NCBI RefSeq assembly: GCF_005885635.1
Contig: NZ_VATY01000001.1
Coordinates: 930,001 to 994,000 of the forward strand
Length of the DNA: 64,000 bases
DNA from: Maribacter algarum (ex Zhang et al. 2020)
GTDB lineage: Bacteria; Bacteroidota; Bacteroidia; Flavobacteriales; Flavobacteriaceae
Direction: 5' to 3'
Shown here: in pieces, positions 12,111 to 58,122 of the stretch
How positions within the stretch are numbered: the stretch's first letter is position 1
Layout of the letters: every line of letters starts with the position of its first letter
Notes under the pieces: generated by a model
Databases searched by the model: none
Told to the model about the DNA's origin: nothing
What the model saw: only the letters and a program-made list of their open reading frames with translations
Made by a program: the position numbers and the translations under genes

Positions 12111-12131
12111 TTAGTTAACTATGTTAACTAA
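12111..12131. promoter_or_regulatory. Shared operator, copy 1 (propionyl-CoA operon)
   Basis: This is a perfect 21-base palindrome of the form TTAGTTAAC-N3-GTTAACTAA, with GTTAAC boxes at 12114-12119 and 12123-12128, nine bases apart. It overlaps the last two codons and stop of the MDR reductase gene and precedes the biotin carrier gene, so it probably controls an internal promoter for the propionyl-CoA operon. Confidence 0.8.
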
Positions 12132-13134
12132 TTTTTACCAGTTGCTTTCCAACATTTTTTCGTTCGAATAACCTATTGAGCGCTATCGGCATATTTTCCA
12201 AGCCTTCTAAAACATCTTCTTGATAGGTCAGTTTTCCCTCTTTTATCCATTGTGCCATTTCCTTTTCCGCAGTTGGAAATTCCTTTTCAAAATCATAAAT
12301 AAAAAAACCTTCCATCTTTGAGCGAGTTCCGCCAATCTTATGCCAATTCTTTAAATAATAGTCTGTATTTTCTCTATCGGAATACTGTGAGATTCTTCCA
12401 CAGCATACTACTCTTGCATAGCGTCTTAATTTGGTCAAGGCGATATCCAATATTTCTGCCCCTACATTGTCAAAATACACATCTATTCCCTCAGGAAAGA
12501 AATGGTCAATACGCTCGGAAACATTATCCTTAGTGTAATTAATGGCGCCAATATAGCCTAATTTCTCTATTAACAATTGACACTTTTCATCTGTACTGGC
12601 AAGACCAACAGCTCTTGCTCCTTTAATATTTGTCAAATGACCCACATTGGAACCTACTCCCCCCGTGGCTGCCGAAACTAATACATTATCCCCTTCTTTC
12701 AACTCACCAATAGTATAGAGTCCGAAATATGAGGTAAAACCGGTCATACCTAAAACGCCCAATGCCGTTGAATAAGGCAGCCCCTGTTGATTCACCTTGT
12801 ACATCATATGATACGTACTACCATCACAAATCACATATTCTTGCCAACCGTGTTTCCCTTGCACAATATCCCCTACTTGAAAATCGGGGTTCTTGCTTTC
12901 CACAATTTCGCCAACACCGCGACCTCGCATGGTATCTCCAATTTGCATAGGATTTTCTATCCCCGCACCGTCTAACATATAAAATTTCATTACGGGAGCT
13001 ACGGATAGAAAAAGTGTTTTAATCAAAAACTCTCCGTCTTTGAGCGGTGGCAAATCATCAACTTCTAATTTGAAATCCGATTTTTTGATAAAGCTTCCTG
13101 GTCGGGTGGCCAAAGTGAGGCGTCTGTTTTTCAT
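12124..13134 (-). CDS. NADP-dependent MDR-family reductase (CurA/leukotriene B4 dehydrogenase-like)
   Basis: The 336-residue enzyme belongs to the zinc-independent medium-chain reductases. The start MKNRRLTLATRPGS is characteristic, and VLVSAATGGVGSNVGHL is the nucleotide-binding loop. Relatives reduce the C=C bond of enones or interconvert alcohol and ketone with NADPH. I chose the ATG at 13134; the longer frame begins with TTG at 13149 and adds five residues not typical of the family. It stands alone between operator copies 1 and 2, and its stop codon lies inside copy 1. Confidence 0.88.
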   Translation of the reverse strand: MKNRRLTLATRPGSFIKKSDFKLEVDDLPPLKDGEFLIKTLFLSVAPVMKFYMLDGAGIENPMQIGDTMRGRGVGEIVESKNPDFQVGDIVQGKHGWQEYVICDGSTYHMMYKVNQQGLPYSTALGVLGMTGFTSYFGLYTIGELKEGDNVLVSAATGGVGSNVGHLTNIKGARAVGLASTDEKCQLLIEKLGYIGAINYTKDNVSERIDHFFPEGIDVYFDNVGAEILDIALTKLRRYARVVCCGRISQYSDRENTDYYLKNWHKIGGTRSKMEGFFIYDFEKEFPTAEKEMAQWIKEGKLTYQEDVLEGLENMPIALNRLFERKNVGKQLVKIS

Positions 13135-13154
13135 GTTTCCAAAATACAAATAAA

Positions 13155-13190
13155 TTAGTTAACATAGTTAATCGTTAAATTAATTAACTA
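13155..13190. promoter_or_regulatory. Shared operator, copy 2 (divergent MDR reductase / amidohydrolase)
   Basis: Four boxes are present: GTTAAC 13158-13163, GTTAAT 13167-13172, GTTAAA 13174-13179 and ATTAAC 13183-13188, with start-to-start spacing 9-7-9. It lies about 20 bases upstream of the minus-strand MDR reductase and 87 bases upstream of the plus-strand amidohydrolase, so it may act on both. Confidence 0.75.
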
Positions 13191-13276
13191 TTTTTTAATG
13201 AAAACCTTTTACTTCCGCTTAAATTAGTTAGTTTTAAGGGATTTGTTCGTTTAAAGCACCTTTAATATTCCAACTA

Positions 13277-14731
13277 ATGAAGAATTTTTTTAAGATTTTT
13301 ACTGGTCTTTACATTTTATTTCTTGTTTCTTGTCAACCTAAAGAACTGATTTTCGAAGATTCCATTTGCATTCAAAATATAAGTACCATAGACCCCATGG
13401 ATGGTTTGAAAGAAAACCAAACGGTCATTATTACGAATGGAAAAATTCATAAAATAGGGAATACCGATTCTCTGCTATTATCTGCAGATAACAACATCAT
13501 TGACGGCACCGGCAAATATTTGATTCCCGGATTATGGGATGCCCACGTTCACTTTGCTTATATCGAAGAAATCGCACCACTGATGTTTGATATGTTTCTC
13601 AGCGCTGGAATTACGAGTGTTCGCGATACCGGCGGAAAAGTCGATTTTGTCAAATTATGGAAAGATAAGGCATTGACAAAACCAACCACGGCACCGCGAG
13701 TCATGATGGCCGGACCTTTACTTGATGGCGAACCCAATGTGTATGATGGAAGCGATGCCTCTCACCCTGAACTTTCCGTTGGTCTAAGCTCCGTTGAGGA
13801 TGTTATTTCTCAAATCGAAACTTTAATCAATAAAGATGTTGATTTATTAAAAGCGTACGAGATGCTTAGCCCTGAACAATTCAAAAAAGTTAATGAGTTG
13901 GCAAAGGCGAACGGCATAAAAGTCACCGGACATGTGCCATTGAGTATGGATGTTATATCCGCAGCCAATGCCGGATTAAACAGTATGGAACACCTCCGAA
14001 ATTTGGAGCTATCCTGCGCGTCAAATAGTGATGAACTTTTAGCAGAGCGACAAAAAATGCTCGCTGACGGAAATGACATGGCTGGCGGGAAATTAAGAAC
14101 CTCGATACACACAGCGCAACGTGAAAATGCCCTCAAGAATTATGATGAAACCAAAGCAGATGAAGTCTTGAATGTCTTAAAGGAAAAAAATGTTTGGCAA
14201 ATTCCAACATTGGCATTAAACACGTTTTTGTCCAATAAATACTTTGCCGATCCTGAGTATCAAAAAAGTTATTTGCAACTACCAGATTCTATTGCAAAAC
14301 ATTGGAAAAACCGTTCGAATGTACTAAAAGACTTTCCGATGTCGGAAGCCTTCGCAGCTCAAGTGGATTTTAATCTTAAAATGGTGAAAAAAGTCTACGA
14401 AAAAGGTATTCCCTTAATGGCCGGCACGGATACACCTATCGCTTACCTAACACCAGGATTGAGTTTACACGAAGAACTTGAAGCTTTGGTCAATACAGGT
14501 ATTCCTCCTTTGGAAGCACTAAAAACGGCTACTTATAATCCTGCTAAATATTTTAATATGGAGGGTGAGTTGGGTTCTATCAAGGAAAATATGTGGGCAG
14601 ATTTGGTGATTCTTAATACCAATCCTCTTGAGGATATTCAAAATACAAGAGATATTGAAGTCGTTATTAAAGAGGGGCAAATATATGTCTCGGAAGATAT
14701 GAAAGCGGACCTGAAAATTTTTAGAAATTAG
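13277..14731 (+). CDS. Exported amidohydrolase lipoprotein (imidazolonepropionase-like)
   Basis: The 484-residue protein has a lipoprotein signal ending at C19 (FLVSC). It has the metal-dependent amidohydrolase signature GLWDAHVHF, with metal ligands H90 and H92, later His residues in TGHVPL and MEHLRN, and the catalytic Asp in MAGTDTP. Relatives hydrolyse cyclic amides, peptides or imidazolones, and the lipoprotein signal places this one outside the cytoplasm. Its position in the regulon suggests a ring-opening or deacylating step on the incoming substrate. The exact substrate cannot be read from sequence. Confidence 0.85.
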   Translation: MKNFFKIFTGLYILFLVSCQPKELIFEDSICIQNISTIDPMDGLKENQTVIITNGKIHKIGNTDSLLLSADNNIIDGTGKYLIPGLWDAHVHFAYIEEIAPLMFDMFLSAGITSVRDTGGKVDFVKLWKDKALTKPTTAPRVMMAGPLLDGEPNVYDGSDASHPELSVGLSSVEDVISQIETLINKDVDLLKAYEMLSPEQFKKVNELAKANGIKVTGHVPLSMDVISAANAGLNSMEHLRNLELSCASNSDELLAERQKMLADGNDMAGGKLRTSIHTAQRENALKNYDETKADEVLNVLKEKNVWQIPTLALNTFLSNKYFADPEYQKSYLQLPDSIAKHWKNRSNVLKDFPMSEAFAAQVDFNLKMVKKVYEKGIPLMAGTDTPIAYLTPGLSLHEELEALVNTGIPPLEALKTATYNPAKYFNMEGELGSIKENMWADLVILNTNPLEDIQNTRDIEVVIKEGQIYVSEDMKADLKIFRN

Positions 14732-14799
14732 GTCAAAATGGGTATAATTTCATAATATCTCTATAATTATTGCTCTTTTCTTGGTAAGTAATTAAAATA

Positions 14800-14834
14800 T
14801 TAGTTAACTTTATTAACTATTAATGAATTAAACT
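14800..14834. promoter_or_regulatory. Shared operator, copy 3 (cytochrome c / amine oxidase operon)
   Basis: Boxes GTTAAC 14803-14808, ATTAAC 14812-14817 and ATTAAT 14819-14824 are clear, with a degenerate fourth (TTAAAC 14828-14833), keeping the 9-7-9 spacing. The site ends about eight bases before the cytochrome c start codon, a position that would block transcription or the start of the transcript. Confidence 0.75.
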
Positions 14835-14841
14835 ATTTTTA

Positions 14842-15321
14842 ATGAAAACACTTCCTTTTTTAGCGGCCCTGCTTTGTTTGACATTATTAAGCGTTTCTTG
14901 CGGCGGTGGAGAGAAAAAGAATCAGGAAGAAGTCAAGCCTGAATTTAACACAAAGAAAACCGAAAACACCTCAAAAGAGACCACCGCAGTGGCCTCCACA
15001 ATTCCCCAATCGGAAAACAAGTTGGGTAGGCGCGTATTTCTTTTATGTGCCGCATGCCACAACGTAGTCAAAGGCGAGCCCCATAAGGTAGGTCCAAACT
15101 TAAATGGATTCTTAGGTCAGAAAGCGGGAATGAAAGAGGACTTTGTATACTCCGAAGCTTTAAAAAACAAAGGTATTGTCTGGAGCGAGGAAACCATTCG
15201 GGAATGGTTAACCAACCCTGCGGGTTATGTGCCGGGCACAAAAATGGCCTTTGTAGGTGTGCAAAAGAAGGAACAACAAGACGCTTTAATTGCGTATCTA
15301 AAAGAGGTAACACAAGACTAA
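14842..15321 (+). CDS. Class I cytochrome c lipoprotein
   Basis: The 159-residue protein has a lipoprotein signal ending at C20 and a charged linker to about residue 60. It then has one cytochrome c domain with heme motif CAACH (69-73) and likely axial Met M135 in PGTKMAF, in the manner of mitochondrial-type cytochrome c (VGPNLNGFLGQKAG). It should sit on the periplasmic side of a membrane. It is the first gene of an operon with two exported flavin amine oxidases, so I infer it takes electrons from them. Confidence 0.93.
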   Translation: MKTLPFLAALLCLTLLSVSCGGGEKKNQEEVKPEFNTKKTENTSKETTAVASTIPQSENKLGRRVFLLCAACHNVVKGEPHKVGPNLNGFLGQKAGMKEDFVYSEALKNKGIVWSEETIREWLTNPAGYVPGTKMAFVGVQKKEQQDALIAYLKEVTQD

Positions 15322-15338
15322 TTCGTAAAAATATAGCT

Positions 15339-16844
15339 ATGAAAACGAACAGACGTAAATTTATTCAAGGTCTAGCTGGTGCTTCGGCGGGACTCATTAT
15401 TCCCGCAAGTTGTACGCCCAAGGCAGAATCCAAAACCGCCAATGTTGAAGCTCCGGCAATTCACTCGAAAAACAAACCTGTTAAAGCAAGTCATGATATC
15501 GTTGTGGTAGGTGCGGGACTTTCTGGTCTTCACGCCGCTATGCTTCTTGAAGAGCAAGGTTTTGACGTACAAGTCATAGAGGGTAGAAATCGATTGGGCG
15601 GCCGAGTTTATACCTTAAACGATGTTCCAGGTAAACCAGAAGCTGCAGGCGAATTTATTGGCGCAAATTATGCGCGAATGCGAAACACAGTAGAAAAACT
15701 TGGTCTTGAAATGTACACTCCTGATGCAGGAGGTGGTGCAAATCGCCCTTGGTTATATAATATTAAAGGAGAATATATTACTGCCAAGAACTGGGAGTCT
15801 CACAAATTTAATCCGTTAGAAGGAGATGATAGAACCTTACTTCCGCATCGCTATTTATCTACTATTTCACACCGTGACAATCCCCTTCAAGGTAAACCCT
15901 TAAATGCTTGGTTAGAACCAGAATATCATCAATATGATATTCCGCACGACCAATATTTACGTTCCAAAGGTGTAAATGAAGAGACGATAAAACTCATGAA
16001 TGTAATCATACATGCCGGTGGTATGCACAATACTTCGGCCATGAATGAATTACGTCGTTACCATGTGATGCATTTTAGTGATGGAAAAACGACTTTTCCT
16101 GATGGAACAGGTTGGAAAATGATTAAGGGAGGAAACTCGTTACTTCCTCAAGCCATGGCGGAAAGCATGAAAAATGAAGTACACTTGGGAAAAACTGTTA
16201 TTGGTTTTAAGGAAGAAGATGGAGTTGTTCAAGTAAGCTGTGCTGATGGTAGTGAGTATACTGCAAAACAAGTGGTTTGTAGCATCCCTATAACTGTTCT
16301 CAAAAATGTAACCTTTGAACCTGTAGTTCAGGGTGTCACCAAAGATGCTATCAACGAAATGGATTATGGATTATCTGTTCAGGCTCACTTCCTGATCACA
16401 GAACCTTTCTGGGAGCAAGATGGTATGGATGCTAATATGTGGACAGATGGTCCGCTTGAACGTTTTGCAGTTCGTACGAAAAAAGACCCAAGTGACCCAG
16501 ATGCTGGTTTGGCATTTATTAATGGGCCGGAATCATTGAAATTCCGTTTAATGAACGATGACCAGGTATTCACTTATGTGGAGAACAAACTAGCTGAAAT
16601 CAGACCTTCAACCAAAGGAAAATTGAAGCGTATTATGATTCAATCTTGCGAACGTGACATTCACGGTGCTGGTGATTGGGTATACTGGCAACCTGGACAA
16701 GTGAAAAAATATGCCAATCACATGCGTAAAAACCATGGTAATATCCACTTCTGCGGTGAACACACAGCCATTATGGAACGAGGCATGGAAGGTGCTTTCG
16801 AGTCTGGTGAACGTGCCGCATTGGATATCATCTTGAATGCATAG
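15339..16844 (+). CDS. Exported flavin amine oxidase-family oxidoreductase, copy 1
   Basis: The 501-residue flavoprotein starts at the ATG at 15339; the longer frame would begin inside the cytochrome gene. The N-terminus has a twin-arginine motif (NRRKFIQ, R5-R6) and a lipobox-like C25, suggesting folded export as a lipoprotein. The dinucleotide loop VVVGAGLSGLHAA is near residue 50, followed by GRNRLGGRV, and the C-terminal FAD segment reads FCGEHTAIMERGMEGA. The family includes amine oxidases, phytoene desaturases and protoporphyrinogen oxidases, so oxidation of a C-N or C-C bond are both possible. Two paralogues lie at 18829 and 40427. Confidence 0.9.
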   Translation: MKTNRRKFIQGLAGASAGLIIPASCTPKAESKTANVEAPAIHSKNKPVKASHDIVVVGAGLSGLHAAMLLEEQGFDVQVIEGRNRLGGRVYTLNDVPGKPEAAGEFIGANYARMRNTVEKLGLEMYTPDAGGGANRPWLYNIKGEYITAKNWESHKFNPLEGDDRTLLPHRYLSTISHRDNPLQGKPLNAWLEPEYHQYDIPHDQYLRSKGVNEETIKLMNVIIHAGGMHNTSAMNELRRYHVMHFSDGKTTFPDGTGWKMIKGGNSLLPQAMAESMKNEVHLGKTVIGFKEEDGVVQVSCADGSEYTAKQVVCSIPITVLKNVTFEPVVQGVTKDAINEMDYGLSVQAHFLITEPFWEQDGMDANMWTDGPLERFAVRTKKDPSDPDAGLAFINGPESLKFRLMNDDQVFTYVENKLAEIRPSTKGKLKRIMIQSCERDIHGAGDWVYWQPGQVKKYANHMRKNHGNIHFCGEHTAIMERGMEGAFESGERAALDIILNA

Positions 16845-16878
16845 CATAAACCGAAAGCTGTATTAAAAAAGAACACTT

Positions 16879-17889
16879 ATGAAAACCTTCCGCTTTTTTG
16901 CAATACTTCTTTTAGCATCGATTAGTTTCCAAACTACTCATGCCGCTATTATCGTAGACGATGGTGACCCCAACGTCCGAGACCTTGGCGTTTTAGCTAA
17001 ATGGTTTGAAGGTGAGTTTGACAACGATGAACAGTTATGGGTTGAAAGTAGGAGTGACTGGTGGGGTAAAGCCGACGAAAAGCACGGACGCATTCATGCA
17101 ACCCACAAAAGAATAAAAGCTGATAGCATCGGCAAATATGTTTTCTATATCGAGGAGTATATGGATGACGACCCAAGTAAAATTGGCAGACAACGAATCG
17201 TCTCTTTTGAAAGTCTCAGCGAGAAAAAACCTGGCATTGAGATGAAATTATATTTTCTAAAAGATGCGGAAAAATATCTAATCGGTTCTGATACTCATAA
17301 TGAGATGTTAGCCAATGTGACCATGGATGCGCTCTTCGGTCTTGATGGCTGCAATGTAATATTCCAGAGAAACGGACAACAATTTCATGGCAGTATGCGT
17401 GAGAAAGCATGTCAATTCGGAAAAGGAGATGAGCTTCGATATTCCGTTCATGATATGGTGGTTTCTGAGAAGGAGTATTGGCGTGTAGACCGTACTTTTT
17501 TGGTGAAAGATGATTCCTTTTTTAAAGGGCACCCGAACTCCGAACCTCATAAAATGCGAAAAGCTAAGGTGTATACTTGCGATGTTTCCTTCTATGAGAA
17601 AGCGTATTATTTACCTAGCGATAAAGACAAAAGTTACAAGGGATTAAAGGTACATGACCAAGGAGGAACTGCTTATGTTCTCAACCCAGTTGACGGCAAA
17701 ACCTATTTCGTGCAATTACGAAATAAGGAATATCCATTTTATGATTTAGAGGATTCTGATTTCTTCTTTTTGCGATTCAAGGAAAAAGAAGCACAAGCTT
17801 CTACCGCACTTGCTTTTGCTGAACCTAACGCAAAAAAAATAGGATTCCAAATGAACTGGGCATCTGCGGTTTGTGAATGTGAAGAATAG
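16879..17889 (+). CDS. Secreted CpcT/CpeT-like protein with C-terminal extension
   Basis: The 336-residue protein has a signal peptide (about residues 1-22). The body resembles CpcT/CpeT, the beta-barrel lyases that attach phycobilins to phycobiliproteins: LAKWFEGEFDNDEQ, YIEEYMDDDP and the paired GCNVIFQRNGQQFHG and KACQF segments. An extra C-terminal domain of about 120 residues (HDQGG, then IGFQMNWASAVC) is shared with the paralogue at 29202. There is no cyanobacterial context, so the fold probably serves to bind or process a pigment-like or hydrophobic ligand outside the cytoplasm. That function is inferred. Confidence 0.72.
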   Translation: MKTFRFFAILLLASISFQTTHAAIIVDDGDPNVRDLGVLAKWFEGEFDNDEQLWVESRSDWWGKADEKHGRIHATHKRIKADSIGKYVFYIEEYMDDDPSKIGRQRIVSFESLSEKKPGIEMKLYFLKDAEKYLIGSDTHNEMLANVTMDALFGLDGCNVIFQRNGQQFHGSMREKACQFGKGDELRYSVHDMVVSEKEYWRVDRTFLVKDDSFFKGHPNSEPHKMRKAKVYTCDVSFYEKAYYLPSDKDKSYKGLKVHDQGGTAYVLNPVDGKTYFVQLRNKEYPFYDLEDSDFFFLRFKEKEAQASTALAFAEPNAKKIGFQMNWASAVCECEE

Positions 17890-17932
17890 CTAAATAATAA
17901 GCTCAAAATATATGGAACAAAAAGAATATCTA

Positions 17933-18832
17933 ATGAAAAGCTACTTTCAAAACCTAAGTTCACTTTTGTCCATTGCACTGCTCGCAGCGAGCTGCAACTC
18001 TTCGGCACCATCAGAATCAGCAGAAAAAACAAGCTCGGAAAAGACTATAAAACAAGAGATTGCTTATGATTTAAACGACCCCAAAGATAAGCTCTTGATT
18101 TTCGAAAAAATGCAGGGAGACCTATCTGGGAAAATGACTTTTTCGTATTCGGAAGGAAGGGTTTTCGGGGTTCGACCTGATAGACCAGATAGCCTAAATG
18201 TTTTCGGAAAAGAAGTATTTCGGTATTCGGGCTGTGGAATGAAAATCATGCGATTACTTGACAATGGCAATGTGGAAACCAAATCAAAAGGTTGGCTGTT
18301 ATACAGAGACCCAAAAACTGATGAATTTCTTAGCGAAGTGAAAAATCCTTATACGGGTGATGTTGTTGAAGTACCGGCATTCCGAGCTGGAATAAGAGGA
18401 GGAATAATGACGTCAGAAGGTCCTGAAGTAGATGCAAGTTTCACCATGGAAAGTACAGCGATTGGCGCACCCTTAGATTTAGTATTTACCGATATGGGCG
18501 ATAAAATGCACATTACACGTCATGCATTTACCAAATGGTTCGAAAAGAAATCACAAACTTGGCGGACGGAAATGACTTTGGATACCTATGATGTAGAAAA
18601 AAAGTATTTATACGATAAATCATTAACTCATATTCCTGCGGATTATCATTGGACAAGTCAGACTTCTTGGTTGTCCCTATTAAAAATGGCTGGAACACCT
18701 GGTCATATGATTTGGACTTCCAGTGGTGGTACGTTCATGAGTAAAGATGACCTTCCTGCAGATTTTATAGCGGCTACAGAAGAAAAACAACCAGATGTAT
18801 TTGCAACACCTTTAACTTGGGACGAGGAATGA
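17933..18832 (+). CDS. DUF1838 family lipoprotein, copy 1
   Basis: I prefer the ATG at 17933, which gives 299 residues and puts a lipoprotein signal (MKSYFQNLSSLL to AASC) at the very N-terminus; an ATG at 17912 would add seven residues. The body matches DUF1838: GDLSGKMTFSYSEGRVFGV, FRYSGCGMKIMRLLDNG and the signature KNPYTGDVVEVP. The family has no established function that I know of. It overlaps the next gene by four bases (ATGA) and follows a CpcT-like gene, a pairing that recurs in this window. Paralogues lie at 27245 and 56335. Confidence 0.8.
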   Translation: MKSYFQNLSSLLSIALLAASCNSSAPSESAEKTSSEKTIKQEIAYDLNDPKDKLLIFEKMQGDLSGKMTFSYSEGRVFGVRPDRPDSLNVFGKEVFRYSGCGMKIMRLLDNGNVETKSKGWLLYRDPKTDEFLSEVKNPYTGDVVEVPAFRAGIRGGIMTSEGPEVDASFTMESTAIGAPLDLVFTDMGDKMHITRHAFTKWFEKKSQTWRTEMTLDTYDVEKKYLYDKSLTHIPADYHWTSQTSWLSLLKMAGTPGHMIWTSSGGTFMSKDDLPADFIAATEEKQPDVFATPLTWDEE

Positions 18833-20325: not shown

Positions 20326-20334
20326 TAAAAAGCA

Positions 20335-21330: not shown

Positions 21331-21334
21331 AATT

Positions 21335-50185: not shown

Positions 50186-50851
50186 TTATCCTATTAGGTG
50201 AAGTCCAAGTGCTGCACATGCAATGGTGCCTACCCATATTCCATATACATAAGGCATGCAATTATCCATCTTTTTTTTCAAGATAGCATTTGTATCCGGT
50301 TTTTCATTACCAGTTACCAAATCGACAAAAGCAGGAGTGAATTTTGAAAGTTGTTGGCGGATGGCAAGTCCGCATAAAATCAATCCACAAAGCACTAATA
50401 ACTTATAATTTAAAAAAGGAGCCATTAAATGTGTAGGATGCATCAGATTATAAATTGCTACCGCTCCAATACCTATTACGAGGATTGGTCGAATCCAAAA
50501 ATCAATGGTTTTCAACTTTTTCTTTAGTCCCTCGTTTTTACTAAAATGAGCAGCCAATACCAATACCAGCCATAAAATACTAACGGCCCAGATACCAGCC
50601 AAAGCTCCATCGCTAATCTTAGCTATCCCCATCAAACTAGCCATGTGCAATCCTGTTGGAGTGACCAAAGGCATTGCAATACGAGGTCCTAAATCACACC
50701 CTAATAAGATATTTAGTGCCGTGGTTCGTTGTCCGGCTGTAAGTTTCGGATTCACCACAAACTTACTTGAATAATAGGTGCCCATATCTGTACCAAGCCA
50801 AAAGGCAAAAAGCAAAACATGGATTAATTTTAGAAAAAGATACGTATTCAT
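50186..50851 (-). CDS. Integral membrane protein of unknown function
   Basis: The 221-residue protein has about five or six hydrophobic segments (LKLIHVLLFAFWLGTDMG, ALAGIWAVSILWLVLVLAAHF, ILVIGIGAVAIYNLMHP, LLVLCGLILCGLAI, MPYVYGIWVGTIACAALGLHL). The His in the first segment and its spacing recall CopD-like and haem-binding membrane proteins, but no confident family can be given. It follows aceF by 38 bases in the same operon. Confidence 0.7.
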   Translation of the reverse strand: MNTYLFLKLIHVLLFAFWLGTDMGTYYSSKFVVNPKLTAGQRTTALNILLGCDLGPRIAMPLVTPTGLHMASLMGIAKISDGALAGIWAVSILWLVLVLAAHFSKNEGLKKKLKTIDFWIRPILVIGIGAVAIYNLMHPTHLMAPFLNYKLLVLCGLILCGLAIRQQLSKFTPAFVDLVTGNEKPDTNAILKKKMDNCMPYVYGIWVGTIACAALGLHLIG

Positions 50852-50889
50852 AATTTGGATTTATTTGGTCTGGTTTCTTGTTTCAAAAT

Positions 50890-52524
50890 CTACAACTTCC
50901 ACATAAACCAGTCTTCCAATAGGGTTTTGACATGTTTTAGAAAACGAGCTGCATCTGCGCCATTGATTATTCTATGGTCGAAACCTATCGTTAAAGGCAT
51001 GATTAATCTAGGCTGAAATTGACCGTCAATATGAACGGCTTCCGTTTGACTTCCGGCAACTCCTAAGATAGCTACCTGTGGAAAACTAACTAAAGGAAAG
51101 ATAGCACTTGTTCCTATTCCCCCTAAATTAGAAATGGTAAAGGTTCCGCCATCAAGGTCATCCATACCGATTTTCTTGCTTTTTACTTTTTCAGCCAAGT
51201 TCCCCAATTCATATGAAATATCGGTAATACTTTTCTCATTTGCATTTTTAAGTACGGGCACCATCAAACCTCTGTCACTATCAACAGCAACGCCTACGTT
51301 AATGTAATCTTTATATACAATCGCTGAATTTTGAGTGTCGATGCTAGCATTGAAGATAGGGAAATCCTCAAGGGCCTTTGCCACCACTTTTACCAAAATT
51401 CCCGTAATGGTAAGGGAACTTCCTTTCGCTTTGAAAGCACCTTTGTGTGCTTGTCGCTTTTGTTCTAAATAGGTGATATCGACCTTTTCTTGCAACCAAG
51501 CGTGGGGAATGTTGCTCCAAGAAGTCGTCATGTTTTTGCTGGTCGCCTGCATGATTCCTGTCATCGCTTCGCTTCGAATCGCCCCCCATTTACTTAAATC
51601 TGGTAAAGTGGCCATTGCCATCGCCGCACCGCCACCAGAAGCTCTATTCTGATTCAATGCTTTGGCATAGTTCTTTACATCTTGAACGGAAATACGATTG
51701 CTGCCTGATTTTAAAGGCATGGTGGCAATATCGATTCCTATTTCGCGGGCAACCTTCTTTGCTAAGGGAGAAGCTCTAAACCTACCATTGCGTTTAGCAT
51801 CATTTTTCGCTAGTGGCGTAGTTTCAACGTTAACGGGAATTTCCACTTTAACAACCTCCTTCACTTCCACCGCCTTTTCCTCAACTACGGGAGCAACAGG
51901 CTCTTCTTCTGCAACTTCAGAAGCCCCACTGGAAATTTTTATAATCGGAGTTCCTTCTCCTACTTCATCGCCAATCTTTACTAATATTTCCGTTATCTCT
52001 CCAGCAAAATCAGCGGGAACCTCAACTACAACTTTATCGGTTTCCACCTCCATCAAAGTCTGTTCTGCAGCAATGGTATCACCCTCCGCTACATGAATGG
52101 CAATGATGGTACCGTTTTCGATACCTTCCCCTAAAGAAGGTAATTTTATTTCGGAAACAGCGGCTTTCTTCGAGGTAGTTTTATTTACAACTTCCGTCTT
52201 CACTTGAGCCTCTTGAACCAGCACAGCTGTATCTGACTCTGCAACTTTAATTTCGGCAACTTCAGGTGTTTCCATTTCTTGAGCAGTATCACCACCTTGT
52301 AAACGAATGATGGGTGTGCCTTGAGAAATCTGGTCGCCCGTATTCACTAAAATCTCGGTCACTACGCCTTCGGCGTCAGAAGGGACTTCGACAACCACCT
52401 TGTCTGTTTCGACTTCCATTAGCGACTGCTCTAAAGTTATCGTATCACCAACAGCAACCATAATATTAATCACAGTGCCACTTTCGATACCTTCGCCCAA
52501 TTCAGGTAATTTCAACTCGGTCAT
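50890..52524 (-). CDS. aceF: Pyruvate dehydrogenase E2, dihydrolipoyl acetyltransferase
   Basis: The 544-residue protein has two lipoyl domains (residues about 1-75 and 122-197, each with VETDKVVVEVP, the Lys being lipoylated). A peripheral-subunit-binding domain (RASPLAKKVAREIGIDI) comes next. The acetyltransferase core ends in the catalytic DHRIINGADAARFLKHV. It takes acetyl groups from the E1 encoded 26 bases upstream. Its operon lies behind operator copy 8, so this complex probably serves pyruvate made by the regulon. Confidence 0.95.
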   Translation of the reverse strand: MTELKLPELGEGIESGTVINIMVAVGDTITLEQSLMEVETDKVVVEVPSDAEGVVTEILVNTGDQISQGTPIIRLQGGDTAQEMETPEVAEIKVAESDTAVLVQEAQVKTEVVNKTTSKKAAVSEIKLPSLGEGIENGTIIAIHVAEGDTIAAEQTLMEVETDKVVVEVPADFAGEITEILVKIGDEVGEGTPIIKISSGASEVAEEEPVAPVVEEKAVEVKEVVKVEIPVNVETTPLAKNDAKRNGRFRASPLAKKVAREIGIDIATMPLKSGSNRISVQDVKNYAKALNQNRASGGGAAMAMATLPDLSKWGAIRSEAMTGIMQATSKNMTTSWSNIPHAWLQEKVDITYLEQKRQAHKGAFKAKGSSLTITGILVKVVAKALEDFPIFNASIDTQNSAIVYKDYINVGVAVDSDRGLMVPVLKNANEKSITDISYELGNLAEKVKSKKIGMDDLDGGTFTISNLGGIGTSAIFPLVSFPQVAILGVAGSQTEAVHIDGQFQPRLIMPLTIGFDHRIINGADAARFLKHVKTLLEDWFMWKL

Positions 52525-52550
52525 TTTCTTCGGATTAAAGGGGTTGGCGA

Positions 52551-55226
52551 TTACGCCATCGGATTAATTTTACTGTTATCTATCTTATGCTTCTTGATGA
52601 AGTCCTTCACTTCTTTTGCCGTGGCTGCACCTTCTTCGCGCAACAATTGTAAAGCGGCCAAAGCGATGAATTTCGGACTGATTTCAAAGTGGTCTCTCAA
52701 ATCTTCCCTTGCTTCGCTCAATCCGTAGCCATCGGTACCTAATACATGATATGCTTTTGGCATCCACTTGGCGATTCCGTTTGCCCACTGTTTTACATAA
52801 TCAGAGACGGAAACAAATACTCCAGTCTCTTTTTCCAACAATTCTTCCACATAAGCTTTCGGTCTTTTACCATCTGTAGAAAGTAATGCCTGGCGCTCCA
52901 CTTCTTGTGCATCACGATGTAATTCCGTGTAGCTAGTCACACTCCAGATATCGGTGGAAATACCCATTTCTTCCAACATTCTTTTGGCTTCAACAACTTG
53001 CATCATTATCGACCCACTGCCCATCAAGTGTGCTTTTCTGCCTTTCGCTATTTTTTTCGTTGATTTTTCATAGCGATACATTCCTTTAATCACTCCTTCT
53101 TCAACACCTTCGGGCATTATCGGCATCGGATAATTTTCGTTCGTTACCGTTATATAATAGAATATCTTTTCTTGCAATTCATACATTCTATGGATTCCGT
53201 CTTTGACAATCAATGCCAATTCGAAGGCAAATGAAGGGTCATAACTTTTCATATTCGGAACAATACTGGAAAGAATATGCGAGTGACCATCTTGGTGTTG
53301 AACGCCTTCTCCGTTCAAAGTTGTTCTTCCAGAAGTACCGCCGATTAGAAAGCCTTTACACATCATATCACCACAAGCCCAAATCATATCACCCACTCTT
53401 TGGAAACCAAAAATGGAATAGAAAACATAAAAAGGAATCATGGGTACACCATGCATAGAATAGGCAGAACCAGCAGCCATAAAGGAAGCAATTGCACCCG
53501 CTTCACAAATACCTTCCTGAAGAATTTGCCCGTCAGCACTTTCTCTATAATAGGAAATGCTATCGGCGTCGACTGGTTTATACAATTGACCTTTGGGCTG
53601 ATAGATTCCCGCGTAGCGGAACAATCCGTCTAAACCAAATGTCCGGGCCTCATCAGGAATAATCGGAACAACATATTCTTTGATGCCATCTTGACGCAAG
53701 AGTTTGGTAATGATTCGCACCAAAACCATAGTAGTAGAAACTGACCTACCTTCAGTACCTGTAAAAAATTCTCCCCAAAGTTCTTCACCTGGAGTTTTTA
53801 TAGCTGGCGCTTCATCTTTACGTTCTGGCAGGTAACCTCCGAGCTCATATCTTTTCTTCTTTAAATATGTAATCTCAGGACTATCTTCAGCAGGCACATA
53901 AAATTTTGCCTTCGCTGCATCTTCTTCACTCATTGGAATACCGAAACGTTTCGCTGCTGCAATACGTTCATCTGCATTCATATTCTTTTTCTGATGCGTT
54001 GTATTCTTACCTTCACCAGAATCACCCATTCCATACCCTTTAAGTGTCTTCATTAGAATCACACTAGGTTTTCCGTTGGGTTTAGCCGCCTTATCAAAAG
54101 CAGCATATATCTTTTTATAATCGTGTCCACCTCGTTTTATGGTACGAATTTCTTCGTCTGACAAAGAGTGCATCAACTTCTCTAATTCCGGATTATCTTT
54201 CACCCAATGCTTCCTTACCTCGTCACCAGGGAGCACTGAATACATCTGGTAGTCGCCATCAAGCGCTTTGTTCATTCTATCTACCAAAATGCCTTTTTGG
54301 TCGCGTTCTAAAAGGGCATCCCACTCGCTACCCCAAATAACTTTAGTCACATTCCATCCAGCACCTAAAAAGCTACGTTCCAATTCTTGAATTACTTTTC
54401 CGTTACCTCGCACAGGCCCATCCAGACGTTGGAGGTTGCAATTGACCACTAAGACAAGATTATCCAATTGCTCACGTACGGCAATGTTTAATGTCCCCAG
54501 TGTTTCTGGTTCATCCATTTCACCATCACCTACGAATGCCCATATTTTACCGCCGTTCTTTTCTTTGAGTCCTCGATTTTCCAGATACTTTTTAAATCGT
54601 GCCTGATAAATTGCGCTGACACCGATAAGTCCCATCGAGGCAGATGGTATCTCCCAAAACTCAGGTAATCTTCTCGGGTGCGGATATGAAGGCAAACCAC
54701 CTCCAGGTTGCAATTCACGTCTAAAGTTTTTCAGATTTGTTTCTGTTAATCTTCCTTCCAAAAGCGCTCTTGCGTAAACTCCCGGAGCGGCATGAGGTTG
54801 AAGGGAAACTAAATCACCTCCATAATTGGCGGATTTTTTTCTAAAAAAGTGATTGAAGCCCACTTCATACATACTGGCCGCAGAAGCGTAAGTAGCAATA
54901 TGGCCACCAACACCTTCACCACTATCGTAACCTTGTAACACCATGGCCATGGCATTCCATCGGTTGATGTTTTCAATTTTATTTTCAATAACCGTATTGC
55001 CTGGATAAGGTGGTTGATGTTTTGCATTAATAGTGTTGATGTAGGGGGAATTCAATGCTTCACCAGCTAACTTCACTCCTTTCCGAATCGCCAAGGCACG
55101 TAATTCTCTAATGAGGTCGGCAGCTTGCTCATCCCCCTGGTCTTCGATAACCTCTTCGATAGAAGCTATCCATTCTTGTAATTCTATCTGCCACTCTTGG
55201 CTTTTTTCAACAGCAATTGTATTCAT
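52551..55226 (-). CDS. aceE: Pyruvate dehydrogenase E1, homodimeric type
   Basis: The 891-residue protein is of the single-chain AceE type: YPGNTVIENKIENINRW near the start, the thiamine-diphosphate motif VGDGEMDEPETLG with NCNLQRLDGPVRGN, and the late FIGGTSGRTTLNGEGVQHQDGH-type region. Bacteroidota more often use two-chain E1 enzymes, so this dedicated copy stands out. It decarboxylates pyruvate and passes acetyl groups to AceF. It is the first gene after operator copy 8. Confidence 0.95.
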   Translation of the reverse strand: MNTIAVEKSQEWQIELQEWIASIEEVIEDQGDEQAADLIRELRALAIRKGVKLAGEALNSPYINTINAKHQPPYPGNTVIENKIENINRWNAMAMVLQGYDSGEGVGGHIATYASAASMYEVGFNHFFRKKSANYGGDLVSLQPHAAPGVYARALLEGRLTETNLKNFRRELQPGGGLPSYPHPRRLPEFWEIPSASMGLIGVSAIYQARFKKYLENRGLKEKNGGKIWAFVGDGEMDEPETLGTLNIAVREQLDNLVLVVNCNLQRLDGPVRGNGKVIQELERSFLGAGWNVTKVIWGSEWDALLERDQKGILVDRMNKALDGDYQMYSVLPGDEVRKHWVKDNPELEKLMHSLSDEEIRTIKRGGHDYKKIYAAFDKAAKPNGKPSVILMKTLKGYGMGDSGEGKNTTHQKKNMNADERIAAAKRFGIPMSEEDAAKAKFYVPAEDSPEITYLKKKRYELGGYLPERKDEAPAIKTPGEELWGEFFTGTEGRSVSTTMVLVRIITKLLRQDGIKEYVVPIIPDEARTFGLDGLFRYAGIYQPKGQLYKPVDADSISYYRESADGQILQEGICEAGAIASFMAAGSAYSMHGVPMIPFYVFYSIFGFQRVGDMIWACGDMMCKGFLIGGTSGRTTLNGEGVQHQDGHSHILSSIVPNMKSYDPSFAFELALIVKDGIHRMYELQEKIFYYITVTNENYPMPIMPEGVEEGVIKGMYRYEKSTKKIAKGRKAHLMGSGSIMMQVVEAKRMLEEMGISTDIWSVTSYTELHRDAQEVERQALLSTDGKRPKAYVEELLEKETGVFVSVSDYVKQWANGIAKWMPKAYHVLGTDGYGLSEAREDLRDHFEISPKFIALAALQLLREEGAATAKEVKDFIKKHKIDNSKINPMA

Positions 55227-55273
55227 AGTAATGGAATTATGTATCTCTAATACAGCACTAATGTAATTAAAAA

Positions 55274-55310
55274 TTAGTTAATATTATTAATCATTAATAT
55301 AATTAACTAT
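55274..55310. promoter_or_regulatory. Shared operator, copy 8 (aceE operon / alpha-beta hydrolase)
   Basis: Boxes GTTAAT 55277-55282, ATTAAT 55286-55291, ATTAAT 55293-55298 and ATTAAC 55302-55307, spacing 9-7-9, lie between divergent aceE (48 bases) and the plus-strand hydrolase (80 bases). Both may be controlled. Confidence 0.75.
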
Positions 55311-55389
55311 ATTTATAATGAATAAAAATTGCCTTTTAGCGTCCTTTATTAAGCTAAATTTCATTCCTTAAAACATTGAATATAAAATT

Positions 55390-56217
55390 ATGAGTGACAA
55401 ACTATTATATCGTACAACATCAAATCCACAACTAAAAAGAGGGTATGTAGATACTGCTGACGGACAGATTCACTTTGGTACCGCAGGAGAAGGACCCGCC
55501 TTAGTTTTGATACATCAATCCTCTTCTTCAATGGAAGAGTATGCGGCCCTCGTCCCGTATTTATTTGAAAAATACCAACTCATCATGTTCGATTTGCCAG
55601 GTCATGGTTTATCGAGTGACCCTAGTAGCGAACCTGGTGTTGAGGAGTTCACTGATGTAGCTTTAGCAGTAGTCAACCATTTGAATGTTGAAAAATGCAG
55701 TGTTCTAGGACATCACGGTGGTGCCTTGATGACGATGAATTTTGCCTATCGCTTTCCCGAACGTACCGAAAAAGTTATTCTATCGGGAACAAGTGGTATA
55801 AAGTCAGAGGAAGAGAAAGTTGAATTTTCTAAGTCTCTTGAAAACAAGAAAAAAGTAGGTCTTGGAAAAGATGGGCAATCCTTATTATTAGCATGGCAGC
55901 GCTATGTTGCGTATATGCCCGATGCGGAAATCAACGATGTACTTCGCCCTTTTCTAAATAGTGTAATCACACGTATGCGACCTTATGACGCACACCATTC
56001 CGTTCTTAAATGGGATAGACAACCAGCGCTAGAAAATCTGAAAGTTCCCGTTTTACTGTTACAGGGACTGTTAGACGAATTCGTAAGTCACCAAGAAAAC
56101 TTATTGGATATTATTCCAAATGCCGAGCGGCAAGTCATCGAAGATGGAGGTGCTTTCTTATTTTTCGATAAGGCAAAAAAATGCGCCAAAATCATCGACA
56201 CATTTCTTAGTAAATAA
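55390..56217 (+). CDS. Alpha/beta hydrolase-fold protein lacking the usual Ser and His
   Basis: The 275-residue protein has the alpha/beta hydrolase fold: VLIHQSSSSMEEYAALVP as the oxyanion region, FDLPGHGLSSDP and LGHHGGALMTMNFAYRFPE at the nucleophile elbow. The elbow normally reads G-x-S-x-G; here it is GHHGG (107-111) with His109 in place of Ser. The usual catalytic His in the last helix-loop is Ala255 (DGGAF). D-containing LLDEFVS remains. It is therefore either a non-hydrolytic enzyme or one with an altered mechanism. It is monocistronic behind operator copy 8. Confidence 0.85.
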   Translation: MSDKLLYRTTSNPQLKRGYVDTADGQIHFGTAGEGPALVLIHQSSSSMEEYAALVPYLFEKYQLIMFDLPGHGLSSDPSSEPGVEEFTDVALAVVNHLNVEKCSVLGHHGGALMTMNFAYRFPERTEKVILSGTSGIKSEEEKVEFSKSLENKKKVGLGKDGQSLLLAWQRYVAYMPDAEINDVLRPFLNSVITRMRPYDAHHSVLKWDRQPALENLKVPVLLLQGLLDEFVSHQENLLDIIPNAERQVIEDGGAFLFFDKAKKCAKIIDTFLSK

Positions 56218-56221
56218 CCTT

Positions 56222-56326
56222 AGGGCAAGCCCACGAGGCGTTAGAACGAAAATTAACATTGATTTCGACGCAAGCGTCGGAGCGTTTTAAACCTGCCCGT
56301 CCGGCAGGCGGGTCTCGATTATCGAG
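56222..56326. repeat. GC-rich REP-like element with several hairpins
   Basis: Between convergent genes lie, in order, GGGC-AA-GCCC (56223-56232), CGACGC-AA-GCGTCG (56266-56279), CCTGCC/GGCAGG (56292-56308) and CTCGAT-T-ATCGAG (56314-56326). The set is far more GC-rich than its surroundings and looks like an interspersed palindromic repeat that also ends both convergent transcripts. Confidence 0.6.
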
Positions 56327-56334
56327 CAAATAAT

Positions 56335-57216
56335 TTATCGCCCCCAGCCGGCTCCAGCTTCACCTTTTTGTAAAGCCCTGACTTCGGCAATATCTTTGGG
56401 CGGATTTAGCCATTTCGGCTTATCCTTTTTTGCCCATGTTAACAGTTTTTCAGGGAATTCATCATGACTTTCCACACGCCAAGAGTGCAATTGTATGACC
56501 GCTTTTTTATCTGGCATTCCCGCCCAAGGTGGAAGTGCCCCATAACGTTCCCATGCCATTTGGTGTGGTTCGTCGACGCTTCCCTCAGGGTGAATAAAGA
56601 AATCATAGTTTTCCCATGCTTGATATTGTCTTCCACCTGGAAGCGGAAAATCTAAATATACCTGTGCATTATATATGTAACTACTCCCCATTTTTCGATA
56701 GGGTATTCCGTCTTCCGATTTGATAACTTGAACGCGTTCGCCAACACCTTGCTCAACATCACCATAAATTCTATCGTTCTCAAGGCGATAGGTTATCATT
56801 TGATAAGGATAGGCAATCGGCGTTACCGGTTGACCATTATATTCAGTAAGCACCTCGCCGGTCTCAGGATCTGTATAGGCAAATGTCTTTCTAGTCAAAT
56901 GCGTTACTTTTCCATCAGCCTCATCAGGCCAAATGATGGTCGAACTATCGAAACCAATCATTCCGAAAAGTTTTTTTCCCGAAGGATATTCATATACAGC
57001 ACCATCTGCCACCCAATGCACGGGTTCGCCAGTTCCTGCTCTTGCATCAACCCAATTCTTTAAAACCTCCGGTGCACTCTGATAAGAAGCTTTATCCGCC
57101 CAAGGATGCGCAACTTCAGTAATCGCGTCTTCTGCTTTTTCAACAGTTTCAATTTTCATGTTCTCTCCGCATCCGAAAAGAATTACGACTATTAATAAGG
57201 ATAGTAATTGCTTCAT
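56335..57216 (-). CDS. DUF1838 family lipoprotein, copy 3
   Basis: The 293-residue lipoprotein has a lipobox ending at C16 (LFGCGEN). DUF1838-like signatures are EPVHWVADGAVYEYPSGKKLFGM, KTFAYTDPETGEVLTEY and the late ALPPWAGMPDKKAVIQLHSWRVES. It is more distant from copies 1 and 2 than they are from each other. It is divergently transcribed from the quinone reductase across operator copy 9. Confidence 0.76.
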   Translation of the reverse strand: MKQLLSLLIVVILFGCGENMKIETVEKAEDAITEVAHPWADKASYQSAPEVLKNWVDARAGTGEPVHWVADGAVYEYPSGKKLFGMIGFDSSTIIWPDEADGKVTHLTRKTFAYTDPETGEVLTEYNGQPVTPIAYPYQMITYRLENDRIYGDVEQGVGERVQVIKSEDGIPYRKMGSSYIYNAQVYLDFPLPGGRQYQAWENYDFFIHPEGSVDEPHQMAWERYGALPPWAGMPDKKAVIQLHSWRVESHDEFPEKLLTWAKKDKPKWLNPPKDIAEVRALQKGEAGAGWGR

Positions 57217-57270
57217 AGTTTCTCTTTTAAATAGTGGACTTTAAAATTTCAGAAACTAAATATACTTAAA

Positions 57271-57291
57271 TTAGTTAACTTTATTAACTAA
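57271..57291. promoter_or_regulatory. Shared operator, copy 9 (DUF1838 / quinone reductase)
   Basis: GTTAAC 57274-57279 and ATTAAC 57283-57288, nine bases apart, lie in a palindromic frame (TTAGTTAAC-N3-ATTAACTAA) between divergent genes, 55 bases from the DUF1838 start and 20 bases from the reductase ATG. Confidence 0.8.
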
Positions 57292-57310
57292 TTTTTAATT
57301 GTACCTATAT

Positions 57311-57958
57311 ATGAATGTATTGATTGTACATGCACACGAGAATACCGATTCATTTTCAAGTGCTCTTGCTAGAACCGTGAAAAGTTTTTTTGAAGAAAAT
57401 GGACACCAAGTCACTATTTCAGATTTGTACGGAAAGGGATTCAATCCCGTCGGCGGCATACACGATTTCAAAAATCTTACCAATAGCGACTACTACAAAT
57501 ATGCTGTTGAACAAATAAATGCTGTCAAAGAGAATTCATTTTCCGAAGATGTCTTCACGGAAATGAAACTACTTGAAGAAGCCGATGTGCTCATTTTGAA
57601 CTTTCCGCTATGGTGGTTTGGCATGCCTGCGATATTAAAAGGTTGGGTAGATCGTGTATTGGCCTACGGTTTTGCCTATGGAGGTGAATACGGTTTATAT
57701 AAGGAAGGAAGATTTCAAGGAAAAAAAGCATTTTTAAGCATAACAACCGGAAGCCCCAATACATTCTATACAGAGGAAGGTACTCACGGAAGGTCACTTG
57801 AAAATATTCTATTAAATATAAATGAAGGTATCATAGGCTTGGTGGGTTTCGATGTACTTCAACCCTATATTGCCTATTCCGTATCCCGCATTTCAGAGGA
57901 GAAACGAAAAAAATATATCGAAGACTATCACTCATTTCTTATCAAAAATTTTGGGTAA
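57311..57958 (+). CDS. NAD(P)H:quinone oxidoreductase (flavodoxin-like fold)
   Basis: The ATG at 57311 starts a 215-residue protein (MNVLIVHAHENTDSFSSAL); a TTG frame at 57299 would add four residues. The NQO1/MdaB-type pattern is clear, with LNFPLWWFGMPAILKGWVDRVLAYGFAYG lining the flavin and quinone site. It passes two electrons at once from NAD(P)H to quinones or other acceptors. In this regulon it may reduce a quinone-like or methine-bridged intermediate, which is inference. Confidence 0.92.
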   Translation: MNVLIVHAHENTDSFSSALARTVKSFFEENGHQVTISDLYGKGFNPVGGIHDFKNLTNSDYYKYAVEQINAVKENSFSEDVFTEMKLLEEADVLILNFPLWWFGMPAILKGWVDRVLAYGFAYGGEYGLYKEGRFQGKKAFLSITTGSPNTFYTEEGTHGRSLENILLNINEGIIGLVGFDVLQPYIAYSVSRISEEKRKKYIEDYHSFLIKNFG

Positions 57959-58086
57959 ATCTGCTTGGGAATCCTTAAAAGATTTGCCGATACTTTAGGA
58001 ATCATATAAGTCTATACTAACCTACGTTGATAAAATCCTTAAAATATTTTCAAAAACATATGGAAATGAAAAAAATTCAAAAAAAA

Positions 58087-58122
58087 ATAGTTAATTATAT
58101 TAACCATTAACATAATTAATTA
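58087..58122. promoter_or_regulatory. Shared operator, copy 10 (TonB-dependent receptor)
   Basis: GTTAAT 58090-58095, ATTAAC 58099-58104, ATTAAC 58106-58111 and ATTAAT 58115-58120, spacing 9-7-9, lie 115 bases upstream of the receptor gene. The remaining leader to 58237 holds no gene. Confidence 0.78.

Follow-up and report, generated by a model that had tools for sequence, protein, structure and literature searches.

The ten palindromic sites found in the window, the whole stretch of 64,000 nucleotides of Maribacter algarum DNA analysed here, are genuine and non-random, and all of them represent one operator that occurs in two forms. As judged from sequence comparison, these palindromes very probably serve as operators for one repressor of the MarR family, whose gene closes the cluster in which they lie.

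One operator in two forms

The first form is a 21-bp palindrome (WTAGTTAAYNNNRTTAACTAW), the second a compound palindrome of 37 bp in which two 21-mers overlap, their centres offset by 16 bp. The motif was present at all ten coordinates for which the initial annotation had claimed a palindromic operator. The claim of one shared motif thus stood, with two forms rather than one, and with 14 sites in the cluster plus two exact ones outside it. A degenerate scan of the window (up to three mismatches, one pattern orientation) returned the same ten places, with four further rows overlapping them and no independent 11th site; scanning both strands with at most one mismatch revealed no site beyond the ten either. 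When the strict 21-mer was applied with up to three mismatches, five of the ten sites fitted, compared with 0.04 expected from 100 dinucleotide shuffles. The sites at 13155, 39722, 43670, 55274, and 58087 fitted poorly because they are built as the 37-bp form. The 21-mer alone was therefore rejected as a description of the motif, as it fails for these five sites, which the 37-bp form accounts for.

Other parts of the 5.11-Mb genome do not contain the motif at equal frequency. The 37-mer (up to three mismatches) occurred at eight places, all of them inside one 63-kb stretch (C1:943155-1006188) and seven of them in the window, and the reversed-pattern control gave none genome-wide at the same threshold. 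Exact 21-mers numbered 10, with 8 in the cluster; the degenerate pattern, run on both strands with at most one mismatch, resulted in 13 places versus 0 for the reversed control. At three mismatches, the reversed control of the strict 21-mer (19 matches) exceeded the real pattern (11 matches), which means that loose 21-mer matches carry little weight, and such genome scans were dropped as evidence.

Sites and genes of the cluster

The cluster spans 75 kb and contains 70 ORFs and 14 operators, eight of which are of the 37-bp compound form; it extends from window position 4925 to 16 kb past the right end of the window, and every one of its 12 same-strand gene runs starts at an operator. All 70 ORFs were compared with protein families or solved structures, and for six of them no family match was found. 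As far as the start calls hold, distances from the window sites to the closest gene start range from 5 to 114 bp. Nine of the ten window sites are wholly intergenic. The exception is the leftmost 21-bp operator (12111-12131), which overlaps gene 12124-13149 (−) at its 3′ end by 8 bp. It is located 54 bp upstream of the propionyl-CoA carboxylase/methylmalonyl-CoA mutase genes (4925-12056, −), whose predicted products (methylmalonyl-CoA mutase subunits, carboxyltransferase, biotin carboxylase, and biotin carrier protein) would convert propionyl-CoA to succinyl-CoA, and it has an exact orthologous counterpart in four other genomes (G215, G026, G334, and G152).

A 37-bp operator at 13155-13191, placed by the 37-mer scan and cross-genome comparison, separates the divergent genes 12124-13149 (−) and 13277-14731 (+). 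In the operators at 14800-14836 and 29151-29187, the first 21-mer is exact and the second half degenerate. The former precedes 14842-22210 (+), encoding cytochrome c-like, CpeT-family, DUF1838, and glyoxalase-superfamily proteins and two FAD amine-oxidase-like enzymes; the latter precedes 22220-29111 (−), encoding an MFS transporter, glyoxalase-superfamily proteins (one just below the cut-off), and CpeT-family, formylglycine-enzyme-like, peroxiredoxin, and DUF1838 proteins. The region 29202-39614 (−), which encodes CpeT-family, methyltransferase, HyuB-type, flavocytochrome c-type, HyuA-type (N-methylhydantoinase/5-oxoprolinase family), SDR, and HapK-like proteins and an HpcH/HpaI aldolase, bears two operators: a 21-bp one (33929-33949) 9 bp upstream of 29202-33919, and a 37-bp one (39722-39758) upstream of 34056-39614, for which an orthologous site exists in G215 only and none in G026 or G334.

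Further to the right, the 37-bp operator 43670-43706 lies between 39888-43627 (−; small and large aconitase-superfamily subunits, a third FAD amine-oxidase-like enzyme, and a DUF3598 match just below the cut-off) and 43946-48281 (+; two MFS transporters, one protein without assignment, and an alcohol dehydrogenase-type oxidoreductase). The stretch 48296-57958, with genes on both strands, encodes a glyoxalase-superfamily protein, two proteins without assignment, E2 and E1 (aceE type) of PDH, an α/β hydrolase, a DUF1838 protein, and an NAD(P)H oxidoreductase. It is served by a 37-bp operator (55274-55310) between the PDH E1/E2 genes (48296-55226, −) and 55390-56217 (+), and by a 21-bp operator (57271-57291) between 56335-57216 (−) and 57299-57958 (+). 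The last site in the window (58087-58123, 37 bp) is upstream of the gene for a SusC-like TonB-dependent receptor (58238-60895, +). The right-hand unit (61114-64000, −) had been taken to lack the operator, which is true inside the window; its first gene, however, runs on to C1:994205, with operators 16 and 70 bp upstream of it at 64222 and 64276 of the window frame. This unit belongs to the proposed regulon, which the window edge had cut.

What the cluster might degrade

With low confidence, the gene content suggests a substrate of the tetrapyrrole or cyclic-imide type. Spelled out in full, one MarR repressor would, through single and stacked-dimer operators, run a 75-kb flavobacterial cluster importing tetrapyrrole pigments (bilins/chlorophyll products), to be degraded with substituted maleimides and methylated maleates/malates as intermediates and propionyl-CoA and pyruvate as products, a tentative and rather doubtful scheme. 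If it were true, algal or cyanobacterial pigments would be a source of both carbon and nitrogen. It is fairly likely that the substrate is instead another N-heterocycle (a hydantoin, ureide, lactam, or alkaloid) not derived from tetrapyrroles, as HyuA/HyuB and the PuuE allantoinase-type, N-carbamoylsarcosine amidohydrolase-type, and amidase-type enzymes would suit any cyclic amide, and one FAD enzyme resembles amine oxidases; ureides, however, would create no obvious need for three to four proteins of the CpeT/CpcT bilin-lyase family per cluster, nor for a disposal route for propionyl-CoA plus pyruvate.

Members of the CpeT family were detected in 29 genomes out of 397. Among these, the four with the cluster have 3, 3, 3, and 4 divergent copies, all in-cluster, and the other 25 have one copy each, scoring better against the family profile; G152 was not among the matches. 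CpeT did not hold up as a marker specific to the cluster. Nothing on this system was found among the open-access entries listed on DUF1838, on dimethylmaleate hydratase, on CpeT in Flavobacteriaceae, on cyclic imides, and on the catabolism of bilins or tetrapyrroles/maleimides.

The candidate regulator

The MarR-family gene (G000:C1:1009479-1009991) is the last of the cluster, 15.5 kb to the right of the window, and the only gene for a DNA-binding regulator recognised among the 70 ORFs. Its product matches the Pfam profiles MarR_2 (43.1 bits; cut-off 27) and MarR (41.1 bits; cut-off 24.6). Foldseek matches listed for the AlphaFold model of an orthologue (L088) comprise MarR, SlyA, MepR, HpaR, MexR, HosA, ZitR, and similar proteins of the MarR type. 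Because the model is weak (mean pLDDT 61), no residue-level claims on DNA contacts are made.

In 27 of 28 genomes, a site (up to two mismatches) precedes the start of the MarR gene by 1104-1151 bp; in G152, only a half-site is found upstream of the MarR gene itself. The −7 promoter consensus, TAnnTTTG, was taken from PMC9723704 and sought at the 24 MarR-operon sites. At 22 of these, a box within one mismatch accompanied the downstream end of the operator, starting inside that end at 17 sites and just past it at five; the box was exact in 9/24 and inexact in 15/24. On the other side of the operator, the corresponding numbers were 4/24 and 0/24, and shuffling of the flanks gave 33% within one mismatch and 1.6% exact. 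A site overlapping or abutting the −7 box would be in a repressing position in the MarR operon, and its location upstream of the MarR gene suggests autorepression. This position argues against the MarR protein being an activator or dual regulator at these sites, which is unlikely despite the facts that the distance to the gene start exceeds 100 bp for some operators (39722 and 58087) and that activation is known for some MarR proteins.

Distribution of operator and regulator

A MarR orthologue is encoded in 5 of 397 Flavobacteriaceae genomes, containing 10, 8, 7, 7, and 2 exact 21-mers, and exactly these five have at least two. As they are related, two of them belonging to one genus, the counts are not independent. 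Single exact 21-mers in two of the 392 MarR-minus genomes (G345 and G113) were taken as chance, the reversed control occurring once each in 9/397; so was one 37-mer place (up to three mismatches) in eight MarR-minus genomes, compared with the reversed control in six. In two MarR-minus congeners, no 21-mer was found at one mismatch or less.

In G152, the MarR gene and the propionyl-CoA module have stayed neighbours, the module with its exact operator, and the genome has two exact operators in total; no catabolic cluster was found in 95 kb around the MarR gene, and no HyuA or CpeT relative genome-wide. G152 thereby resembles a natural reduction of the system to MarR and the propionyl-CoA module. 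Both this genome and the codistribution of operator and MarR gene over the 397 genomes render it quite improbable that another regulator, encoded elsewhere, reads the operators and that the MarR gene is a mere target. Its unit does bear an operator, as expected of any target, and the six ORFs without family match may include a further regulator; no second one was recognised among the 70.

In the three syntenic genomes, 39 of 42 orthologous operator positions are kept which, together with the association with one MarR gene, sustains the initial proposal of one regulon over linked catabolic genes. The 26 orthologue loci (492 kb) contain 54 21-mers and 33 37-mers, and neither form appeared in one Markov shuffle each; as the exact 21-mer is also missing from 390/397 genomes of the family, and both forms are palindromic with the offset fixed at 16 bp, it is most improbable that this AT-rich motif, for which the reversed control gives as many loose matches, is not an operator bound by protein but a dispersed repeat or an element of promoter or DNA structure.

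Outside the cluster, an exact site precedes the same cysteine desulfurase gene in three of the five MarR-containing genomes and is absent in the other two and in two MarR-minus congeners. A site near an aminotransferase gene (C1:1267335) is not conserved upstream of the G026 orthologue, and G152 has no orthologue of that gene at E ≤ 1e-80.

Proposed mechanism and significance

Each 21-mer would be occupied by a MarR dimer which, covering or adjoining the −7 box, would block RNA polymerase; on the 37-mer, two dimers about 1.5 helical turns apart would, judging by the spacing, occupy roughly opposite faces of the DNA. An effector derived from the substrate, speculatively an intermediate formed when a cyclic imide/lactam compound, tetrapyrrole-derived or other, is broken down, would free the DNA of the repressor. 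The release of the repressor would switch together the whole cluster, the uptake receptor, the disposal modules for propionyl-CoA and pyruvate, and the operon encoding the repressor itself.

Some 70 genes, many of them not assigned to any pathway, are joined into one regulated unit, a block of breakdown genes apparently under one small repressor, which offers a handle on what the block digests. The candidate regulator is named and open to purification and testing, and it could act as a biosensor for identifying the substrate. The operator is a sequence signature marking pathway genes anywhere in these genomes, such as that for cysteine desulfurase, and the 37-bp two-dyad form is a way into graded repression inside one regulon. 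To our knowledge, local MarR regulators governing so many promoters are few.

Comparison with known systems

YetL, MepR, SlyA, and HpaR are among the best solved relatives of the MarR protein, by sequence or Foldseek, being 17-30% identical to it in the fold alignments listed; they control other genes than those of this cluster. HpaR is a MarR-family catabolic repressor, as are HcaR, CouR, and PcaV (reviewed in PMC5487221). What that review sets out of them is paralleled by the family, the promoter palindromes, and the putative autoregulation, control of a catabolic pathway, and release by an early intermediate. Unlike in those systems, as far as described there, 14 sites serve 12 same-strand gene runs across 75 kb, and 8/14 are 37-bp compounds of two overlapping palindromes. 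An open-access text search with the operator half-sites gave, by title, no bacterial regulator of such kind among the matches listed, and listings of open-access literature on MarR regulons in Flavobacteriaceae and on bilin/tetrapyrrole catabolism described no such system.

In anaerobic nicotinate breakdown, the dimethylmaleate hydratase/dimethylmalate lyase branch combines an aconitase-superfamily hydratase with C-C cleavage to propionate and pyruvate. The gene set of the cluster, its activities predicted from family membership, would allow a route of this type; unlike in the nicotinate pathway, none of the 70 ORFs was recognised as encoding an upstream nicotinate enzyme. Stacked or overlapping-dimer operators are known from DtxR/MntR, a different protein family, and the 37-mer with two dimers on roughly opposite DNA faces, as its spacing suggests, would be the analogue of these operators in a MarR-type regulon.

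Two forms of the operator and the extent of the cluster

The motif of the initial annotation was present at all ten positions that it had listed in the window. The strict 21-mer given for it held for half of these: five sites fit with ≤3 mismatches (0.04 expected from shuffles), whereas the other five fit poorly and, on side-by-side reading, revealed a longer form of 37 bp, WTAGTTAAY-NNN-RTTAAYNATTAAY-NNN-RTTAAYTAW. This 37-mer is palindromic as a whole and corresponds to two 21-mers with centres 16 bp apart. Seven of the ten window sites have the 37-bp form, its second half being degenerate at 14800 and 29151; single 21-mers are located at 12111, 33929, and 57271. When the 5.11-Mb genome (the window being bases 930001–994000 of contig C1) was scanned for the motif elsewhere, which had been proposed as a check, the 37-mer (≤3 mismatches) was found at eight places, every one within C1:943155–1006188, and its reversed control at none. 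A degenerate 21-mer pattern with ≤1 mismatch matched 13 places versus none for the reversed control, which matched once each in the relatives G026, G215, and G334 and the congener G270, and not at all in G152 and the congener G050. Loose 21-mer matches (three mismatches) were discarded as evidence because the reversed control was higher (19 versus 11).

A scan of 224 kb around the window added four cluster operators to its right (C1:994222, 994276, 1006152, and 1008356). Left of C1:942111, the sole match was one with three mismatches at 863902; another such match lies within the cluster at C1:1002003. The cluster (C1:934925–1009991) comprises 70 ORFs of ≥90 aa, in 12 same-strand runs by our own count, all 12 headed by an operator ≤239 bp from the first gene. 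Thirteen of the 14 cluster sites are fully intergenic, and that at 942111 overlaps the 3′ end of the neighboring gene by 8 bp. Two units of the window had been considered site-free. This did not hold for 61114–64000: its last gene is the 3′ part of C1:992790–994205 (minus strand), which has two operators directly upstream, just beyond the window edge, so the unit would be under operator control. The members of this pair, only 54 bp apart, lie between divergent operons, and both are kept in G215, G026, and G334. The left-end gene (850–4761) indeed has no site; in G215 and G026, the 20 kb examined to the left of the cluster contained neither a match to this gene nor an operator with ≤2 mismatches, and the gene is counted out of the predicted regulon.

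Across the three relatives with a syntenic cluster (G215, G026, and G334), an operator was present at 39 of 42 positions orthologous to the 14 sites (≤320 bp from the orthologue start; 37-mer with ≤4 or 21-mer with ≤2 mismatches), with one site standing for both 994222 and 994276, which a separate scan showed to be present individually. No site was recorded for 969722 in two of the genomes (G026 and G334) and for 944800 in one (G026). In the latter case, the orthologue search fell on a relocated gene; a 37-mer at 1080845 of G026 precedes the DUF1838 gene of the 944800 operon. Before 987271, M. algarum and G215 have a single 21-mer, whereas the G026 site is closer to the 37-bp form, as is, weakly, that of G334 (three mismatches).

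Co-occurrence of a MarR-family gene with the operator

Downstream of the rightmost operator (C1:1008356) come a gene of nitrilase fold and then a MarR-family gene (C1:1009479–1009991). Comparison of 69 of the 70 ORFs with NCBIfam or Pfam, and of the remaining one with solved structures only, revealed no DNA-binding regulator other than this MarR-family protein. Six ORFs had no family match (window 23476–24093, 30735–31097, 46507–47271, 49372–50097, and 50186–50851; L016:13224–14294). The nearest solved proteins by sequence include YetL, a MepR-like protein, and MepR; the Foldseek matches listed are MarR-type regulators, for a query model of only moderate confidence (mean pLDDT 61). The stretches compared from the relatives extend ≥3.8 kb beyond the MarR gene and contained no counterpart of the genes that follow it in M. 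algarum; as far as seen, the conserved block thus ends there.

A MarR orthologue (E ≤ 1e-15) was found in 5 of 397 Flavobacteriaceae genomes, which carry 10, 8, 7, 7, and 2 exact copies of the 21-mer. The exact 21-mer occurred once each in 2 of the 392 MarR-minus genomes, and its reversed control once each in 9 of the 397. The hypergeometric probability of 5/5 versus 2/392 is ∼3e-10 (hand arithmetic), a value that ignores relatedness, two of the five sharing a genus. The 37-mer (≤3 mismatches, forward count) was found at 8, 8, 10, and 8 places in four of the five, at one place each in eight MarR-minus genomes, and, reversed, in six genomes. A separate genome collection contained 26 orthologue loci, all from Flavobacteriaceae (including the marine genera Croceitalea, Maribacter, Aquimarina, and Muricauda). 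These loci (492 kb) contained 54 21-mers (≤1 mismatch) and 33 37-mers (≤3 mismatches), one Markov-shuffled copy of each containing neither. When M. algarum and G215 were added, 27 of 28 genomes had a site (≤2 mismatches) upstream of the nitrilase gene, at a distance of 1,104–1,151 bp from the MarR start.

The exception, G152, kept a half-site there, which resembles a deletion scar. At this locus (L102; G152:C9:143152–163652), the MarR gene adjoins a methylmalonyl-CoA mutase/propionyl-CoA carboxylase module that retains its exact operator. Within the 95 kb examined, none of the catabolic genes was well matched (best, a 25% partial TonB receptor match); genome-wide, neither a HyuA relative (E ≤ 1e-50) nor a CpeT protein was found, and the 37-mer was not found in G152.

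The concentration of sites in the cluster, their positional conservation, and co-occurrence with the MarR gene support the single regulon originally proposed, with the motif now sharpened to 14 cluster sites of two forms.

Promoter overlap

The −7 box of the main flavobacterial promoter is TAnnTTTG, according to PMC9723704. It was sought at 24 of the 27 MarR-operon sites, the three left out being L092 and L094 (listed among the 37-mers) and L111 (two mismatches). On the downstream side, 22 of 24 had the box with ≤1 mismatch and 9 exactly; on the upstream side, 4 and none, respectively; after shuffling of the flanks, the proportions were 33% and 1.6%. The best box begins just past the operator (position 27–28) at five of these 22 sites (L095, L097, L098, L099, and G334). 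A −7 box at the downstream operator end argues for promoter occlusion: an occupied operator would occlude the promoter, and the MarR operon would be autorepressed. By extension, the remaining sites may also mediate repression. On the 37-mer, where the 16-bp dyad offset amounts to ∼1.5 helical turns, two dimers would probably sit on roughly opposite faces of the DNA.

Possible targets outside the cluster

Two exact 21-mers of M. algarum lie outside the cluster. One (C1:1267335) is upstream of a class I aminotransferase-like gene, at a start-to-start distance of 43 bp; the other (C15:399754) is 41 bp upstream of a cysteine desulfurase-like gene (both names are our own reading of the sequences). 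In G334 and G152, this cysteine desulfurase gene is likewise preceded by an exact operator, but at −90 (L113:3164 and L114:3805); none was found before it in G215, G026, and the MarR-minus congeners G050 and G270 (best, 6–7 mismatches). Because the distances differ (−41 versus −90), the gene may have been recruited more than once, unless the difference reflects a shift by insertion or deletion. The enzyme might supply sulfur for aconitase-type iron-sulfur enzymes.

Possible function of the cluster

By gene family, the cluster appears equipped for import (a TonB receptor and transporters of the MFS and bile-acid types), oxidation (FAD amine-oxidase-like enzymes and a cytochrome c-like protein), cyclic-amide ring opening (HyuA/HyuB of the hydantoinase/5-oxoprolinase family, two PuuE allantoinase-type proteins), amide hydrolysis (N-carbamoylsarcosine amidohydrolase and amidase types), and further conversion by two hydratases of the aconitase superfamily (for one of them, isopropylmalate/citramalate isomerase is the nearest relative), an HpcH/HpaI aldolase, pyruvate dehydrogenase, and a propionyl-CoA route. 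Three amine-oxidase-like enzymes are encoded at window 15204–20325 and 40427–41779, two of them adjoining a cytochrome c-like gene; by eye, all three N-termini look like Tat or lipoprotein signals. Oxidation may thus take place in the periplasm. Three DUF1838 proteins fall within the one predicted regulon (17912–18832, 27245–28144, and 56335–57216).

Three divergent proteins of the CpeT/CpcT bilin lyase family (16879–17889, 25056–25778, and 29202–30293), one with weak similarity (E 3e-5) to CpcT, a phycocyanobilin lyase of solved structure, and a HapK/REDY-like small protein (38519–38830), of a family named from prodigiosin-type pathways, suggest pyrrole pigments. The cluster might then degrade tetrapyrroles via substituted maleimides, whose methylated acids would yield propionate and pyruvate. 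We consider this improbable because CpeT is found beyond cluster-bearing genomes (29 of 397 genomes); the 25 without the cluster have a single copy each, with a better profile score. The dimethylmaleate branch of nicotinate breakdown yields propionate and pyruvate, the same outcome as the route proposed here. Judged from sequence, the system is a putative MarR-family catabolic regulon, which would differ from known MarR catabolic regulons in its unusually large size and its compound operator.
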